From: an uncultured Pelagibacteraceae bacterium
GTDB lineage: Bacteria > Pseudomonadota > Alphaproteobacteria > Pelagibacterales > Pelagibacteraceae
NCBI GenBank assembly: GCA_902619675.1
Contig: CACNFA010000007.1
Coordinates: 1 to 34,877 of the forward strand
Direction: 5' to 3'
DNA length: 34,877 nucleotides
Under the pieces are notes generated by a model. The model did no database searches. It saw only the letters and a program-made list of their open reading frames with translations, and was not told the origin of the DNA. Each line of letters begins with the position of its first letter. The stretch's first letter is position 1. The position numbers and the translations under genes were made by a program. Of this stretch, positions 12,279 to 16,904 are shown in pieces.

Positions 12279-12677
12279 ATGTCCATGAGTAGTTCATTTC
12301 ATTTGGCAATCCCAGCAGGTGATTTAAAAAAAGCAGAAGCTTTTTATACTAATATTTTAGGATGTAAAACTGGAAACCGTGAAAACGGTAAATGGGTTGA
12401 CATAGATTTTTGGGGCAATGAACTCACATTACATCAAACATCCATGAAACTTCCAAGAGAAAGACATGACGTGGATATGGGTCAGGTTCCAGTTCCGCAC
12501 TTTGGTGTGCATTTAAAAAAAGATGTTTTTAATAAAATCAAAGCAAATATTGAAGCTAATAAAATTAATTACATCGACAAACCCTACACTAGATTTGAAG
12601 GTACTGAATTTGAGCAGAATACATTTTTTATTGAAGATCCAAACGGAAATGTATTAGAGTTAAAAACGTTTGACTAA
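12279..12677 (+). CDS. VOC / glyoxalase-like family protein
   Basis: This 132-residue single-domain vicinal-oxygen-chelate protein opens with [20 protein letters not shown], has HFGVHL in the second beta-alpha-beta-beta-beta module, and ends with [13 protein letters not shown], the conserved C-terminal metal-ligand Glu region. Members bind a metal and act on diverse substrates. The start may instead be ATG 12285, two codons in. Its 3' end overlaps the gshA TTG start by 8 bp, so a glutathione-related role is possible but only inferred from position. Confidence 0.85.
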
Positions 12678-14013
12678 TAAATCAACTTCCTTCATTGAAA
12701 ATAAAAATCAGCTAATCCAATATTTTAACGACGGGATTAAAAAAAATACTAATCTTAGAATTGGTGTTGAGCATGAAAAATTTCTTTTTAATAAAACAGA
12801 TTTAAAAAGAGTGGATTATGATCAAATTAAGAAAATATTTGAAATCTTAAAAGAAAAAGGTTGGAGACCACAATTAGAGAAAGATAAATTAGTTGGTTTA
12901 CGTAGACAAAATCAAAAAATTACGACCGAACCTGGATTTCAGTATGAATTATCGGGCGCGCCGTTTAAAAACATACATTCAGTTTGTTCGGAAAATAGTT
13001 CTCATTTTAATGAACTGAAAGAGGTTTTTAAATCTACAAATATTACTACTTCATCAATTGCATATGATCCATTTAATAAATTAGCTGATATCCCTAAAAG
13101 TCCAAAAGAGCGTTACAAAATTATGACAGCCGAAATGCCGAGAGGAGGTAAGCTAAGTTTGGATATGATGTATAAAACTGCAGGTATTCAGATTAATTAT
13201 GATTATACTTCTGAAGAAGATTTTGAAAAAAAATTTAAGATAGGGAATTACTTAACTCCTCTAACAATTGCTTTATTCGCGAACTCTCCATTCTCTGAAA
13301 ATAAACCTTCAGGTTTTTTATCCTATAGAGGGAAAGTTTGGCAAGAAACTAATAGAGGTGGGATAATGCCAATTACTTTTGAGAAATTAAACTTTGAAAA
13401 ATATATAGATCATGTAATCAATTACCCTATTTTATTTCTCAAAAAAAATGGAACGTACCATTCTCCTAATGGTCAAACATTTAATGATTTTTTAAATGGT
13501 AATTTAAGTTTTTTAAAAGGAGAAAAGCCAAATTTAGAAGATTTTGAAAATCATTTAGGTACTATTTTTACTGAGATAAGATTAAAACAAGTTATAGAAT
13601 TTAGATCGTTAGATACATGCAACTTTGGATGTATTTGTAATGGACCTTCTTTCTTCACGGGATTAATTTATGGGTCATTAAATGAGACTTATGAAATAAT
13701 TAAAAATTGGAAAAAACAAGATGTAATGGATGCATATTTAAATGCACCTAAAAAAGGACTTAACACTGTGCTTCAAGATAAAAAATTAATTGATTGGGCA
13801 AAAATATTTTTAGATTTATCTAAAAAAGGCTTACAAAATAGAAATGAACTTAATAAAAGTGGGAAAAATGAGACAATTTATTTAAAACATATAGAGGAAA
13901 TAATTAACAATAAAAAAACTAGAGCAGAAATGCTAATTGAGCAATATAATAAAACAAAAAAATTAGATTTCTTAATAAGCCATGATGAAAATTTTAGCTA
14001 TTCAGGGTTCTGA
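12670..14013 (+). CDS. gshA: Glutamate-cysteine ligase, plant/proteobacterial class
   Basis: This 447-residue enzyme performs the first step of glutathione synthesis, ATP-dependent gamma-glutamylcysteine formation. GVEHEKFLF (about 34-42) is the ATP/Mg-binding start of the fold. MMYKTAGIQINYDY (about 174-187), IGNYLTPLTIALFANSPF and IEFRSLDTCNFG are further class motifs. Only a TTG at 12670 gives a full-length N-terminus, since the next methionines are far inside. The TTG lies within the last codons of the VOC gene, an 8-bp overlap. Its 3' end overlaps gshB by 32 bp. Confidence 0.92.
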   Translation: MTNKSTSFIENKNQLIQYFNDGIKKNTNLRIGVEHEKFLFNKTDLKRVDYDQIKKIFEILKEKGWRPQLEKDKLVGLRRQNQKITTEPGFQYELSGAPFKNIHSVCSENSSHFNELKEVFKSTNITTSSIAYDPFNKLADIPKSPKERYKIMTAEMPRGGKLSLDMMYKTAGIQINYDYTSEEDFEKKFKIGNYLTPLTIALFANSPFSENKPSGFLSYRGKVWQETNRGGIMPITFEKLNFEKYIDHVINYPILFLKKNGTYHSPNGQTFNDFLNGNLSFLKGEKPNLEDFENHLGTIFTEIRLKQVIEFRSLDTCNFGCICNGPSFFTGLIYGSLNETYEIIKNWKKQDVMDAYLNAPKKGLNTVLQDKKLIDWAKIFLDLSKKGLQNRNELNKSGKNETIYLKHIEEIINNKKTRAEMLIEQYNKTKKLDFLISHDENFSYSGF

Positions 14014-14899
14014 TCTTACAAAAGTAAATATCAAAACTGATACAACTATTCTTTTAGCATCTGAAGCACAAAAAAGAGGTTACAAAATATATTATTTCGA
14101 ACCAGAAAATTTAAGTTTTTTAAATGGAAAGGTTATAGCTTCTTGTAAGCATATAAAAATCAACGAAAGTAAAAAGAAATTTTACTCACTATTAAGAACT
14201 GTTAATTTTAATTTAGAAAAATCTAAAATAATTCTTATCAGAAATGATCCGCCTTTTGATAATCGTTATTTATATACAACATTCTTACTGAACCATATCT
14301 CTAAGAAAGTTAAGATAATTAATCATCCTTTTGCAATCAGAAACATATCTGAAAAGCTATTTTCCATCAATTTAATGAGGTATATGCCTCCAACTTTGAT
14401 CAGCGAAAACCTTGTAGAAATAAGAAGTTTTTTTAAAAGATATAAAGCTATTGTGGCTAAACCTATAAATGGTTTTAGTGGTAATAACGTAACTCTCTTT
14501 AAAAATTTTAACGCTTCTAAAGTAAGAAAATTATTGAAAACTCATAATCATTTATTTTTTCAAAAGTTTTTACCTGGAGTTTATAAAGGTGATAAAAGAG
14601 TTTTTATCATTAAGGGAAAAATTGTAGGTGCTATTTCTAGAGTACCAAAAAAGGGTAGTATTTTATCTAATATGAGTAAGGGAGCTAAAGCAAACCTAAC
14701 TGTACTCACAAGCAAAGAAGCTAATACATGCAAAGCAATTGGGAAATTATTAGTGAAAAATAATATATATTTTGCAGGAGTAGATTTCGTGCAGGAGAAA
14801 TTAATTGGTGATATTAATGTAACTAGCCCTACTGGACTTGTTGCATATAAAGATTTATCTGGAATCAACCTTGCAAAATTGTTCTGGAATAATATTTAA
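13982..14899 (+). CDS. gshB: Glutathione synthase
   Basis: This 305-residue protein has an N-terminal pre-ATP-grasp domain with the motif LIRNDPPFDNRY (RKDPPFD in the family). The ATP-grasp part contains IVAKPINGFSGNNV (ATP-binding Lys/Gly loop) and GDINVTSPTGL (family LxEINVTSPTG; the first acidic residue here is Asp). It joins glycine to gamma-glutamylcysteine. The start (ATG 13982, or 13985 one codon later) is inside the gshA 3' end, so translation is coupled. It is the last gene before the metY leader. Confidence 0.93.
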   Translation: MMKILAIQGSDLTKVNIKTDTTILLASEAQKRGYKIYYFEPENLSFLNGKVIASCKHIKINESKKKFYSLLRTVNFNLEKSKIILIRNDPPFDNRYLYTTFLLNHISKKVKIINHPFAIRNISEKLFSINLMRYMPPTLISENLVEIRSFFKRYKAIVAKPINGFSGNNVTLFKNFNASKVRKLLKTHNHLFFQKFLPGVYKGDKRVFIIKGKIVGAISRVPKKGSILSNMSKGAKANLTVLTSKEANTCKAIGKLLVKNNIYFAGVDFVQEKLIGDINVTSPTGLVAYKDLSGINLAKLFWNNI

Positions 14900-14906
14900 T
14901 TGATAG

Positions 14907-14936
14907 TTGACAAAATCCTAAATTTCTTGCTATAAA
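14907..14936 (+). promoter_or_regulatory. Sigma70-type promoter of metY
   Basis: TTGACA (14907-14912, perfect -35) is followed by an 18-bp spacer and TATAAA (14931-14936, five of six). Transcription should start near 14942-14944, at the very beginning of the SAM-II aptamer. This is the best promoter match I found in the window. Confidence 0.85.
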
Positions 14937-14941
14937 TCTAT

Positions 14942-14997
14942 TAGCGCTGAGTTAAAGCAACTTGCGGGCGCTTAATAAATCCTGCTAAAGCGCAAAG
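14942..14997 (+). promoter_or_regulatory. SAM-II riboswitch aptamer
   Basis: The segment has the SAM-II H-type pseudoknot layout. P1 is AGCGC (14943-14947) with GCGCT (14968-14972), and the P2 pseudoknot is UUGCG (14962-14966) with CGCAA (14991-14995). Loop sequences UGAGUUAAAGC and UAAUAAAUCCUGCUAAAG closely resemble the known Sargasso Sea metX SAM-II aptamer. It binds S-adenosylmethionine. CTAAAGCG (14985-14992) can alternatively pair with CGCTTTAG (15010-15017) in the terminator region. A SAM-dependent terminator choice therefore follows. Confidence 0.88.
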
Positions 14998-14998
14998 T

Positions 14999-15033
14999 CT
15001 TTAGACCACCGCTTTAGTCGGTGGTTTTTTTTT
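14999..15033 (+). terminator. SAM-II-controlled intrinsic terminator
   Basis: ACCACCG (15005-15011) pairs with CGGTGGT (15019-15025) around a 7-nt loop and is followed by an unbroken run of nine Ts (15025-15033). The candidate antiterminator (14985-14992 with 15010-15017) uses two stem bases and the whole loop, so it should compete. With SAM bound, the upstream strand is held in the aptamer and the terminator forms. Confidence 0.85.
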
Positions 15034-15052
15034 GGAGCATTCTAAAATTAAA

Positions 15053-15105
15053 CCGGGTATTTGAACCATATTGTACACCTGGCAATCGCCGAAGTACTAA
15101 AAAGG
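15053..15105 (+). promoter_or_regulatory. SAM-V riboswitch aptamer
   Basis: The segment has the SAM-V-like core TGGCAATCGCCGAAGTACTAAAAAGG (15080-15105, summarised). A possible fold is P1 GGGT (15055-15058) with ACCT (15077-15080), a pseudoknot GTAC (15073-15076) with GTAC (15094-15097), and an inner hairpin GGC-AATC-GCC. This topology parallels SAM-II. A strong Shine-Dalgarno site (GGAG, 15104-15107) follows directly, as expected for translational control. A tandem SAM-II/SAM-V leader before metY is, to my knowledge, reported from Candidatus Pelagibacter ubique. Confidence 0.78.
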
Positions 15106-15156
15106 AGAAGATGAACAAAATTAAATTTCGTTCATTCTTCTCCAAAAAAAGGAGAA
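15104..15156 (+). promoter_or_regulatory. Two mutually exclusive Shine-Dalgarno-masking hairpins
   Basis: The pyrimidine arm TTCTTCTCC (15135-15143) can pair upstream or downstream. Upstream, 15130-15143 pairs with 15104-15116 (13 bp with one bulge), hiding a GGAG and its ATG at 15111. Downstream, TTCTCC (15138-15143) pairs with GGAGAA (15151-15156) across seven As, hiding the second GGAG before ATG 15160. The pairings exclude each other. The link to SAM-V is inferred. Confidence 0.6.
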
Positions 15157-15176
15157 AAAATGAACGAGACAATTAG
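15111..15176 (+). CDS. Candidate 21-residue leader peptide 1 (uORF)
   Basis: ATG at 15111 follows GGAG at an ideal short distance and opens a 21-codon frame ending TAG. The peptide is very basic (KIKFRSF, SKKRRK). No protein family applies. It could be a control element whose translation opens the hairpin it lies in, a duplicated start region, or chance. It overlaps leader ORF 2 by 17 nt in another frame. Confidence 0.35.
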   Translation: MNKIKFRSFFSKKRRKNERDN

Positions 15177-15207
15177 AGAAACAGTAAGGGGGAAAATCAA
15201 TGGCTGA
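15160..15207 (+). CDS. Candidate 15-residue leader peptide 2 (uORF) overlapping metY
   Basis: ATG at 15160 follows AAAGGAGAAAAA and opens a 15-codon frame (MNETIRETVRGKING) whose TGA lies at 15205-15207, inside metY codons 2-3. The 8-nt overlap with the metY ATG is typical of translational coupling. The start repeats the ATGAAC of leader ORF 1. Its role is unproven. Confidence 0.35.
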   Translation: MNETIRETVRGKING

Positions 15208-16492
15208 TTTTAAACATCCGGAAACTATTGGCTTACATGGTAGCGATTACAGATCAGATCCTACTACTACAGCTGTAGCAGTTCCTATTTACCAAACAAC
15301 CTCTTACCAATTTAAAAATGCAGAACACGCAGCAAATTTATTTGGTTTGAAAGAATTTGGTAACATTTATACGCGTATAATGAATCCAACAGTAGATGTT
15401 CTAGAAAAAAGAGTTGCGGCACTTGAAGGTGGTGTAGCAGCATTAGCAGTTGGATCAGGTCAAGCAGCTTCAGCAATGTGTATTCAAAACTTAGCACAAG
15501 CTGGAGATAATATTGTTGCGTCTACTGACTTATACGGAGGCACAGTAAACTTATTCAAAAACACTTTGAGACAACAGGGTATTGAAGTTAGATTTGCAGA
15601 TCCTGCAGATCCTAAAAACTTTGAAAAAGTTACTGATGATAAAACAAGAGCTTACTATGGTGAGTCTTGTCCAAATCCTTATCTTCGTGTGTTCCCAATC
15701 AAAGAAGTTTCAGATATCGGTAGAAAAAAGGGTATTCCTTTAATCATCGATAACACAGCTTCACCAGTAATTTGTAAACCTTTAGCTCACGGAGCTGCAA
15801 TCGTAATGCACTCATTGACTAAATATATTGGTGGTCACGGAACTTCAATTGGCGGAATTATTGTTGATGGTGGAAACTTTGACTGGATAAAAGACAGAAA
15901 AAGACAACCATTAATTAATGAACCTGATCAAAGTTATGGTGGTGCGGTTTGGGCAGATGCAGTTCCTCAACTAACAGGAGCTAACATTCCTTTTGTAATC
16001 AGAGCAAGAGTGGTTTTATTAAGAGACTTAGGTGCTCCTTTAAGTCCATTTAATGCTTTCCAAATTATTCAAGGTTTGGAAACAGTTGCTCTTAGAATGA
16101 AACAACACTGTAGTAATGCAGAGAAAGTTGTATCTTTCTTAGAAACACAGAAAAAAGTTAAGAATGTAATCTACCCTACTAATCATCAAGGTGAGATTAA
16201 AGAAAGAGCTAAAAAATATATGCAAGGTGGATATGGTTCTTTAGTTGGAATGGACTTAGGTACTAAAGAAGCTGGTGCCAAATTCATCGATAACTTAAAG
16301 ATGTTATATCACGTTGCTAATATTGGTGATGCTAGAAGTCTAGCAATTCACCCGGCTACTACAACGCACAGTCAATTAGATGATGCAGCGTTAGCAGCAG
16401 CAGGAGTAACACCTGGTTATGTGAGACTGTCAATTGGTATCGAACACCCGGATGATATCATTGCAGATATCAAACAAGCATTAGCTGCTTAA
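15200..16492 (+). CDS. metY: O-acetylhomoserine (thiol)-lyase MetY
   Basis: This is a 430-residue PLP enzyme of the Cys/Met-metabolism family. IIDNTASP (182-189) gives the PLP-ring aspartate (Asp184), and SLTKYIGGHGT (205-215) holds the Schiff-base Lys208. ETIGLHGSDYRSDPTT and SVPIYQTTSY-type N-terminal motifs match MetY. It makes homocysteine directly from O-acetylhomoserine and sulfide. An AAGGGGG site 7 nt before the ATG supports the start. Expression is under SAM-II plus SAM-V control. Confidence 0.95.
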   Translation: MADFKHPETIGLHGSDYRSDPTTTAVAVPIYQTTSYQFKNAEHAANLFGLKEFGNIYTRIMNPTVDVLEKRVAALEGGVAALAVGSGQAASAMCIQNLAQAGDNIVASTDLYGGTVNLFKNTLRQQGIEVRFADPADPKNFEKVTDDKTRAYYGESCPNPYLRVFPIKEVSDIGRKKGIPLIIDNTASPVICKPLAHGAAIVMHSLTKYIGGHGTSIGGIIVDGGNFDWIKDRKRQPLINEPDQSYGGAVWADAVPQLTGANIPFVIRARVVLLRDLGAPLSPFNAFQIIQGLETVALRMKQHCSNAEKVVSFLETQKKVKNVIYPTNHQGEIKERAKKYMQGGYGSLVGMDLGTKEAGAKFIDNLKMLYHVANIGDARSLAIHPATTTHSQLDDAALAAAGVTPGYVRLSIGIEHPDDIIADIKQALAA

Positions 16493-16535: not shown

Positions 16536-16904
16536 ATGATCAAACAAATCAAATCATCAGAAATAAAAAAATTTATAGATAGCAATCCAAACACTGTTTT
16601 ACTAGACGTTCGAACAGAAGACGAATGGAATACAGTTGGTAAGCCCGATACGAAAGGTTTCGGTATTGAATCCTTTTTTATTACTATTTCACAAGACCCA
16701 AGTTTTTTAAAGAGTGTTAAAAAAAATATCGATAAAAAAAATCAAGTATTGGTAATGTGTGCAGCAGGTGGCAGATCAATTGTTGCTGCTAATCTTTTAG
16801 CAAATGAGGGTTATAATGTCTTAAATGTCTCTGATGGTTTTAGTGGAAATGGTCAAGATCCTGGCTGGAAGAATATAGGATTACCTTCTCTTATAAATTT
16901 CTGA
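16536..16904 (+). CDS. Rhodanese-like sulfurtransferase
   Basis: This is a 122-residue single rhodanese domain. LLDVRTEDEW (22-31) is the CH2A-type motif and the active-site loop is C75-AAGGRS (75-81), with the catalytic cysteine present and an extra nearby Gly. NVLNVSDGFSG and DPGWK follow. Such proteins move sulfane sulfur. It lies 43 bp after metY on the same strand and may be cotranscribed with it. Its last 24 bp overlap the convergent lipoprotein gene. Confidence 0.9.
   Translation: MIKQIKSSEIKKFIDSNPNTVLLDVRTEDEWNTVGKPDTKGFGIESFFITISQDPSFLKSVKKNIDKKNQVLVMCAAGGRSIVAANLLANEGYNVLNVSDGFSGNGQDPGWKNIGLPSLINF

Follow-up and report, generated by a model that had tools for sequence, protein, structure and literature searches.

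A conserved hairpin relay behind SAM-V as a likely expression platform for methionine genes in one SAR11 family

The stretch of DNA analyzed here (the window) comprises 34,877 nucleotides from an uncultured Pelagibacteraceae bacterium and carries metY, which encodes O-acetylhomoserine sulfhydrylase, at 15200..16492 (TIGR01326, 567 bits; cut-off 495.1). The gene and all leader features described below are on the forward strand. Just upstream of the metY leader are the glutamate-cysteine ligase and glutathione synthetase genes (12670-14013 and 13982-14899), and a rhodanese-domain gene (16536-16904) lies just downstream of metY. In the leader, the covariance model RF01826 matched a SAM-V riboswitch aptamer at 15046..15110 with 66.8 bits, above its cut-off of 41. 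A weak SAM-II-like aptamer was placed at 14934..15008, where RF00521 scored 18.0 bits and did not reach its cut-off of 36; the assignment was made because an element ahead of a terminator-like hairpin matches the arrangement of the known SAM-II/SAM-V tandem. This hairpin (ACCACCG/CGGTGGT with a T run, 15005..15033) was recognized by sequence reading alone.

Two GGAG motifs, designated SD1 (15104-15107) and SD2 (15151-15154), were read in the sequence behind the SAM-V core, together with two short reading frames. Mini-ORF 1 (15111..15176) has 21 codons from ATG 15111 to a stop at 15174-15176, and mini-ORF 2 (15160..15207) has 15 codons and ends in a TGA at 15205-15207 which overlaps the metY ATG at 15200. 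An SD-like AAGGGGG of metY itself is located within mini-ORF 2 at 15186..15192. The coordinates and frames of the two GGAG-ATG modules, including the overlap with metY, had been given correctly by the original prediction. The distance from the SAM-V GGAG to the metY ATG is 96 nt, and the window therefore lacks the direct layout in which a gene starts within about ten nt of the SAM-V motif.

Three arms were defined in this region. Arm1 (GGAGAAGATGAAC, 15104..15116) contains the GGAG of SAM-V, arm2 (CGTTCATTCTTCTCC, 15129..15143) is a shared pyrimidine anti-SD arm identified by sequence reading and conservation, and arm3 (GGAGAAAAAATGAACG, 15151..15166) holds the ribosome site and the start of mini-ORF 2. 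Arm1 and arm2 are predicted to form the helix H1, with 13 pairs and one bulged U, and arm2 and arm3 the helix H2, in which arm3 would be hidden. A single CUCC in arm2 serves both, so the predicted helices are mutually exclusive; as in a sequestor/anti-sequestor switch, one of the two exclusive helices would hide an SD. The duplex energies are -20.9 kcal/mol for arm1:arm2 and -19.1 kcal/mol for arm2:arm3. None of 1000 dinucleotide shuffles of the middle segment gave a sum as low as the observed -40.0 kcal/mol (mean -18.8, sd 4.1). The claim that one arm can mask either GGAG, but not both, was thereby borne out, and the pyrimidine arm itself exists; its proposed extent of 15135-15143 covers only the 3' part of arm2. 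The two GGAG-ATGAAC modules, which had been described as duplicated, are best read as two strands that both have to fit arm2. An intrinsic terminator at H1 or H2 was ruled out by sequence reading, as neither hairpin is followed by a T run.

Close relatives were used to follow this layout. The window stretch was matched by 134 of 169 genomes of the same genus, of which 'Candidatus Pelagibacter ubique HIMB058' (L300) is a named member. Among the matches listed, at least 69 loci, the window included, have the layout of the window (type C), at least 20 have the arms and mini-ORF 2 separated by a gene roughly 1.1 kb long (type B), and in at least 19 metY starts straight from SAM-V (type A). Five type B loci were translated, and one (L141) was typed solely from the part adjoining metY. 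The order in type B is relay, methyltransferase gene, mini-ORF 2 and metY. In L062 the intervening gene encodes a homocysteine S-methyltransferase (PF02574), and in L080 it is MetE-like, with NCBIfam matches that fall under the cut-off. In L080, L081 and L145, the gene following the SAM-V relay is MetE-like instead of bhmT-like. All three arms are present in type B with other letters, arm1 of L062 being GGAGAAGTAGATGAAATC and its arm2 ending in GATTTCATCTCTCTCC. The ATG of arm3 in type B is the start of the intervening gene, and mini-ORF 2 lies between that gene and metY with an AGGAGG of its own. In the window, therefore, the start at the end of the relay belongs to mini-ORF 2 instead.

The intervening gene comes and goes among close relatives (L062-L080 and L141 of type B; L032-L061 and L082-L120 of type C). 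Types B and C are intermixed on the metY tree, where 12 and 13 changes were counted (540 columns; weak support for 50 of the 109 inner branches). The stems of the two states are spelled differently, which would fit an exchange of entire cassettes. A deletion scar alone, with the mini-ORFs as mere leftovers of a lost gene, was considered and rejected, because the three arms also precede that gene where it is present.

Conservation was measured in 65 distinct type C leaders, with L119 left out. The mean heterozygosity was 0.009 for arm1, 0.025 for arm2 and 0.029 for arm3, compared with 0.033 for SAM-V, 0.131 and 0.143 for the two loops, 0.102 for the remainder of mini-ORF 2 and 0.201 for the third positions of metY. 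Nine of the 13 positions in arm1 and 11 of the 15 in arm2 are invariant. Relative to the window, length changes were found 11 and 7 times in the loops, 4 times in arm3 and never in arm1 or arm2. Near-invariant arms beside variable loops are what alternating stems would need, because any change in arm2 must be matched twice.

For a wider survey, 207 distinct leaders behind SAM-V were taken from the fetched loci. Another 20 of 238 loci gave no match to the SAM-V pattern and were placed in neither group, although some of them hold a SAM-V that the pattern missed. After L031 was dropped (pattern at the wrong place; its SAM-V is direct) and L146 was moved, there were 109 non-direct and 97 direct leaders. 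The order GGAG-CUCC-GGAG-ATG was found in 101 of the 109 distinct non-direct leaders and in none of the 97 direct ones, with unrelated stems, by a pattern (CUCC-like, 4-14 nt, GGAG-like, ATG) that was written after examples had been seen. The genes behind the 109 leaders are metY (66), bhmT-like (37), MetE-like (3) and without assignment (3). In most relay leaders ahead of genes other than metY, the last ATG is the start codon of a homocysteine methyltransferase gene; one such case is a genome with coordinates matching those of strain HTCC1062. Among the 109 are leaders from other genera (L145, MetE-like; L146, bhmT-like; L151, gene unassigned) and Pelagibacter-type bhmT leaders (L191, L195, L212-L218, L220, L221, L225 and L229-L231, of which L215 is unparsed). 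Direct leaders, including those of the same genus, dispense with the relay. In a class-wide scan, SAM-V was matched in 8 of 289 genomes; six of these matches lie outside the family, one of them above the cut-off, and the relay was not seen at any of the six.

Eight of the 109 leaders gave no relay parse (L025, L101, L104, L111, L154, L155, L156 and L215). A base within the CUCC is altered in L101, L104 and L111. In L025 (G236:C7 near 29563), a strong GGAG-CUCC hairpin follows SAM-V and no ORF of at least 60 codons starts within 200 nt; we read it as an orphan or decayed leader. A long leader, followed here from the GGAG to about +140, separates SAM-V from the next gene in L151, L154, L155 and L156, which come from two other genera. 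An ORF of 44-45 codons begins 3 nt past the GGAG in L151 and L154, its 3' part contains the arm1 complement, and in L151 it overlaps the next start as TAATG.

The base beside the P2a strand also sorts with the leader type. A C occupies this position in 108 of the 109 non-direct leaders and in all 16 direct bhmT leaders, whereas the direct metY leaders have T in 71 of 74, C in one and no reading in two. By its sequence, the metY SAM-V of the window looks like the bhmT type, as would be expected if a bhmT leader had come to serve metY. We can only guess that this C strengthens P2a against H1.

The arms hardly vary inside the clade of the window, leaving co-change visible between clades only. Of 31 named representatives, 30 were testable by shuffling, and the summed energy was reached by a fraction of at most 0.003 of the shuffles in 29 of them and 0.025 in L221. 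When the arms of seven clades were exchanged in silico, every arm1 fitted its own arm2 best (7/7). The mean H1 energy was -18.56 kcal/mol for matched vs -11.41 kcal/mol for mismatched arms, and the true pairing was the single best of 5040. With eight clade representatives, the own arm2 was best in 7 of 8, and the true pairing was 1 of 40320. For H2 in seven clades, the corresponding means were -12.36 vs -10.38 kcal/mol, and 269 of the 5040 pairings were equally good. In a set of 14 representatives, half of which (7) are Pelagibacter, 8 of 14 middles had their matched H1 as the best one and none of 20000 permutations was as low; the matched H2 was best in 2 of 14, and 928 of 20000 permutations were as good. 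These swap outcomes suggest that arm1:arm2 is specific and that arm2:arm3 is mostly SD against anti-SD. Two-sided changes were found at arm1 offsets 5-17 of the predicted H1 helices in 26 leaders. Hence, judging by predicted helices and arm swaps, the arm1:arm2 helix appears to be kept by compensatory change. The comparison of related leaders that the original prediction had called for was thus favorable as to the conserved arms, the co-change of arm1 and arm2 between clades and the retention of mini-ORF 2, but not as to the frame of mini-ORF 1, which differs in 22-25 of 66 type C leaders.

In fold models of 26 leaders, the two states are close to balance, the H1 state minus the H2 state being -0.35 kcal/mol on average (sd 1.65). 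To imitate the effect of SAM, the leading two G of SD1, which SAM-V presumably captures, were barred from pairing. Over 101 leaders, this lowered the probability that SD2 is unpaired from a median of 0.44 to 0.0003 and from a mean of 0.39 to 0.008. The value fell in 98 of 101, the other three being already near zero with a drop of at most 0.01, and it fell below half in 63 of 63 leaders that started above 0.3. After masking, it was still 0.40 in L021 and 0.15 in L212, and in the HTCC1062-like bhmT leader it decreased from 0.94 to 0.40 only. Masking other arm1 positions gave the same drop. Because both helices draw on arm2, such a drop is to be expected, and it illustrates switching and does not prove it.

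The complete leader of the window favors H2 by 1.3 kcal/mol, with SD2 unpaired at 0.12, compared with a median of 0.52 in type C (63 leaders). To reach the ON state, the window would therefore have to trap H1 while the RNA is being made, or mini-ORF 1 would have to be translated. In the growing transcript, H1 (-18.0) forms first. The unpaired probability of SD2 stays at 1.0 until base 15164, has dropped to 0.64 by 15168 and reaches 0.12 at 15180; masking of the two G leaves SD2 paired from 15160 onward (0.05 unpaired). As H1 forms first in the growing RNA, the decision probably falls during transcription, judging by equilibrium folds of fragments.

All 89 type B and C loci among the matches listed have a mini-ORF 2 that overlaps metY. 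It ends 8 bases into metY in 87 loci and as TAATG in two, so that a stop overlapping the next start, the mark of translational coupling, is conserved throughout. Single-base codon changes in mini-ORF 2 were synonymous in 20 of 49 cases, vs an expected fraction of 0.25 (p 0.011; 86 loci), which gives modest support for coding. The SD and ATG of metY itself are mostly unpaired in both states of the fold models, with 15188-15193 at 0.5-0.7 unpaired across all modelled states. Coupling of mini-ORF 2 to metY would be plausible, but the open metY site speaks against the explanation proposed below.

We propose that, when SAM is absent, the 3' GGAG of SAM-V would pair with arm2 (H1), leaving the downstream GGAG-ATG free (ON). 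Once SAM is bound, SAM-V would retain the leading two G of this GGAG in helix P2a, and H1 would lose its base. The CUCC of arm2 could then turn to the downstream GGAG and form H2, so that translation starting at ATG 15160 would drop (OFF). The controlled start would be a gene's own in relatives that have another gene in the slot; in the window it would be that of mini-ORF 2, and metY would follow via translational coupling at the overlapping stop. An expression platform of this sequestor/anti-sequestor kind is the likely reading of the locus, given the sequence, the conservation, the co-change of arm1 and arm2 and the predicted near-balance of the folds. It is probably OFF with SAM; the dependence on SAM, the sign and the coupling to metY are what we infer. 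Competing hairpins with an OFF sign, as originally predicted, are supported by conservation, by co-changing arms in other clades and by the fold models.

Other explanations were weighed against this one. An ordinary SAM-V, with its GGAG as the working ribosome site and the hairpins due to chance, would agree with the 97 direct leaders and with the published model. However, the metY ATG of the window is far from that GGAG (96 nt), the pairings of nearly all testable representatives exceeded their shuffles, and the arms of type C leaders are conserved, which makes this explanation highly improbable. Alternatively, the signal could be passed on by translation: without SAM, a ribosome starting at ATG 15111 would read mini-ORF 1 and cover arm2, leaving SD2 free, and SAM-V would block this start so that arm2 masks SD2. 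The sign would be the same, and ON would be explained although H2 is favored in the full leader of the window. A start codon is kept at this place in 66 of 66 type C leaders (65 ATG, 1 GTG), and in 41-44 of the 66 the frame has 16-17 codons and overlaps the second start as ATGA (the higher count takes the nearer of two in-frame ATG in L085, L117 and L118). On the other side, the GGAG-to-ATG spacing is 3 nt, H1 itself buries ATG 15111, the window is among the 22-25 leaders with a deviating frame or stop, and five leaders stop within 4 codons. A list of 26 relay leaders drawn from all clades contains 11 that lack a start at this place, and L145, L146 and L229 have only TTG. The conserved frame of a leader-peptide attenuator is lacking, and mini-ORF 1 was rejected as a general coding element on account of the variable frames and stops and the missing starts elsewhere. 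We regard a translational handover as distinctly unlikely, and the idea that mini-ORF 1 is a needed part of the relay was not sustained. From its sequence, mini-ORF 1 is probably incidental; pairing with the CAU opposite which ATG 15160 can also lie accounts for its ATG in the window.

The relay of the window might also be a relic that once served a methyltransferase gene now missing here, governing mini-ORF 2 alone while metY uses its own open SD. Type B relatives do have the relay, the methyltransferase gene, mini-ORF 2 and metY in that order, the window's own genome (80.7% complete) gave no match to the type B methyltransferase protein, and the SD of metY looks open in the fold models. Yet the arms are less variable than SAM-V itself in the 65 leaders, and the overlap of mini-ORF 2 is retained in every type B and C locus examined. 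We consider a relic rather unlikely.

The preferred sequestor/anti-sequestor platform shares features with several known systems. It has the aptamer, the 3' GGAG, the methionine genes and the expected OFF sign of direct-type SAM-V (RF01826), but its GGAG is away from the gene start (96 nt for metY; the HTCC1062-like bhmT of genome G026 starts 73 nt past the GGAG) and can pair with a downstream anti-SD arm. The thiM TPP riboswitch and the translational S-box are translational riboswitches with sequestor and anti-sequestor helices. As in those, there are two exclusive helices and the ligand would favor the one hiding the ribosome site; unlike in those, the anti-sequestor strand would be the SD-like end of the aptamer itself. 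The window resembles the SAM-II/SAM-V tandem in its upstream SAM-II-like element and terminator-like hairpin, but the relay lies after SAM-V and the SAM-II match is under its cut-off. The erm leader peptides are translational attenuation leaders, and they likewise place a mini-ORF and alternative hairpins ahead of a gene; in contrast, the frame of mini-ORF 1 is not strictly conserved and its start is absent from the relays of many relatives. The logic of the platform is known, and its use with SAM-V's own GGAG appears to be new. A literature search by titles and the beginnings of abstracts, which did not cover Poiata 2009, reportedly the study that described SAM-V, yielded no description of a relay downstream of SAM-V.

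In earlier reports, SAM binding is proposed to form P2a and hide part of the adjacent SD (PMC6061858), the SAM-V partner always controls RBS access (PMC9481103), and the SAM-V motif is typically within ten nt of the start codon (PMC2704228). Three leaders from genome G026 (L021, L210 and L211) have SAM-V positions within the HTCC1062 metY and bhmT intergenic regions given in PMC2704228. The HTCC1062 bhmT tandem was probed in PMC11508383, the available portion of which holds no mention of a downstream relay. In HTCC1062, levels of bhmT and metY go up when sulphur is limiting (PMC5069961).

Taken on its sequence evidence, the relay is a real and conserved SAM-V expression platform, observed here within one SAR11 family only. 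It is about evenly balanced, in our judgement, whether the GGAG of SAM-V is SAR11-wide a decoy without a gene, an anti-sequestor strand that passes the SAM signal to a ribosome site 45-130 nt downstream, and whether the window chains a 15-codon coupling ORF to it and so has three SAM-dependent steps (SAM-II termination, SAM-V relay and coupled start). If the relay is right, it would be a compact bistable RNA of natural origin, poised close to energetic balance across several lineages, and its mutually exclusive hairpin layout could be tested in a cultured strain. The HTCC1062 bhmT leader would need re-reading, and constructs ending at the aptamer would miss the working part. SAR11 bacteria are among the most abundant cells in the sea, and, if the relay is right, they have a second SAM-V mechanism for their methionine genes.
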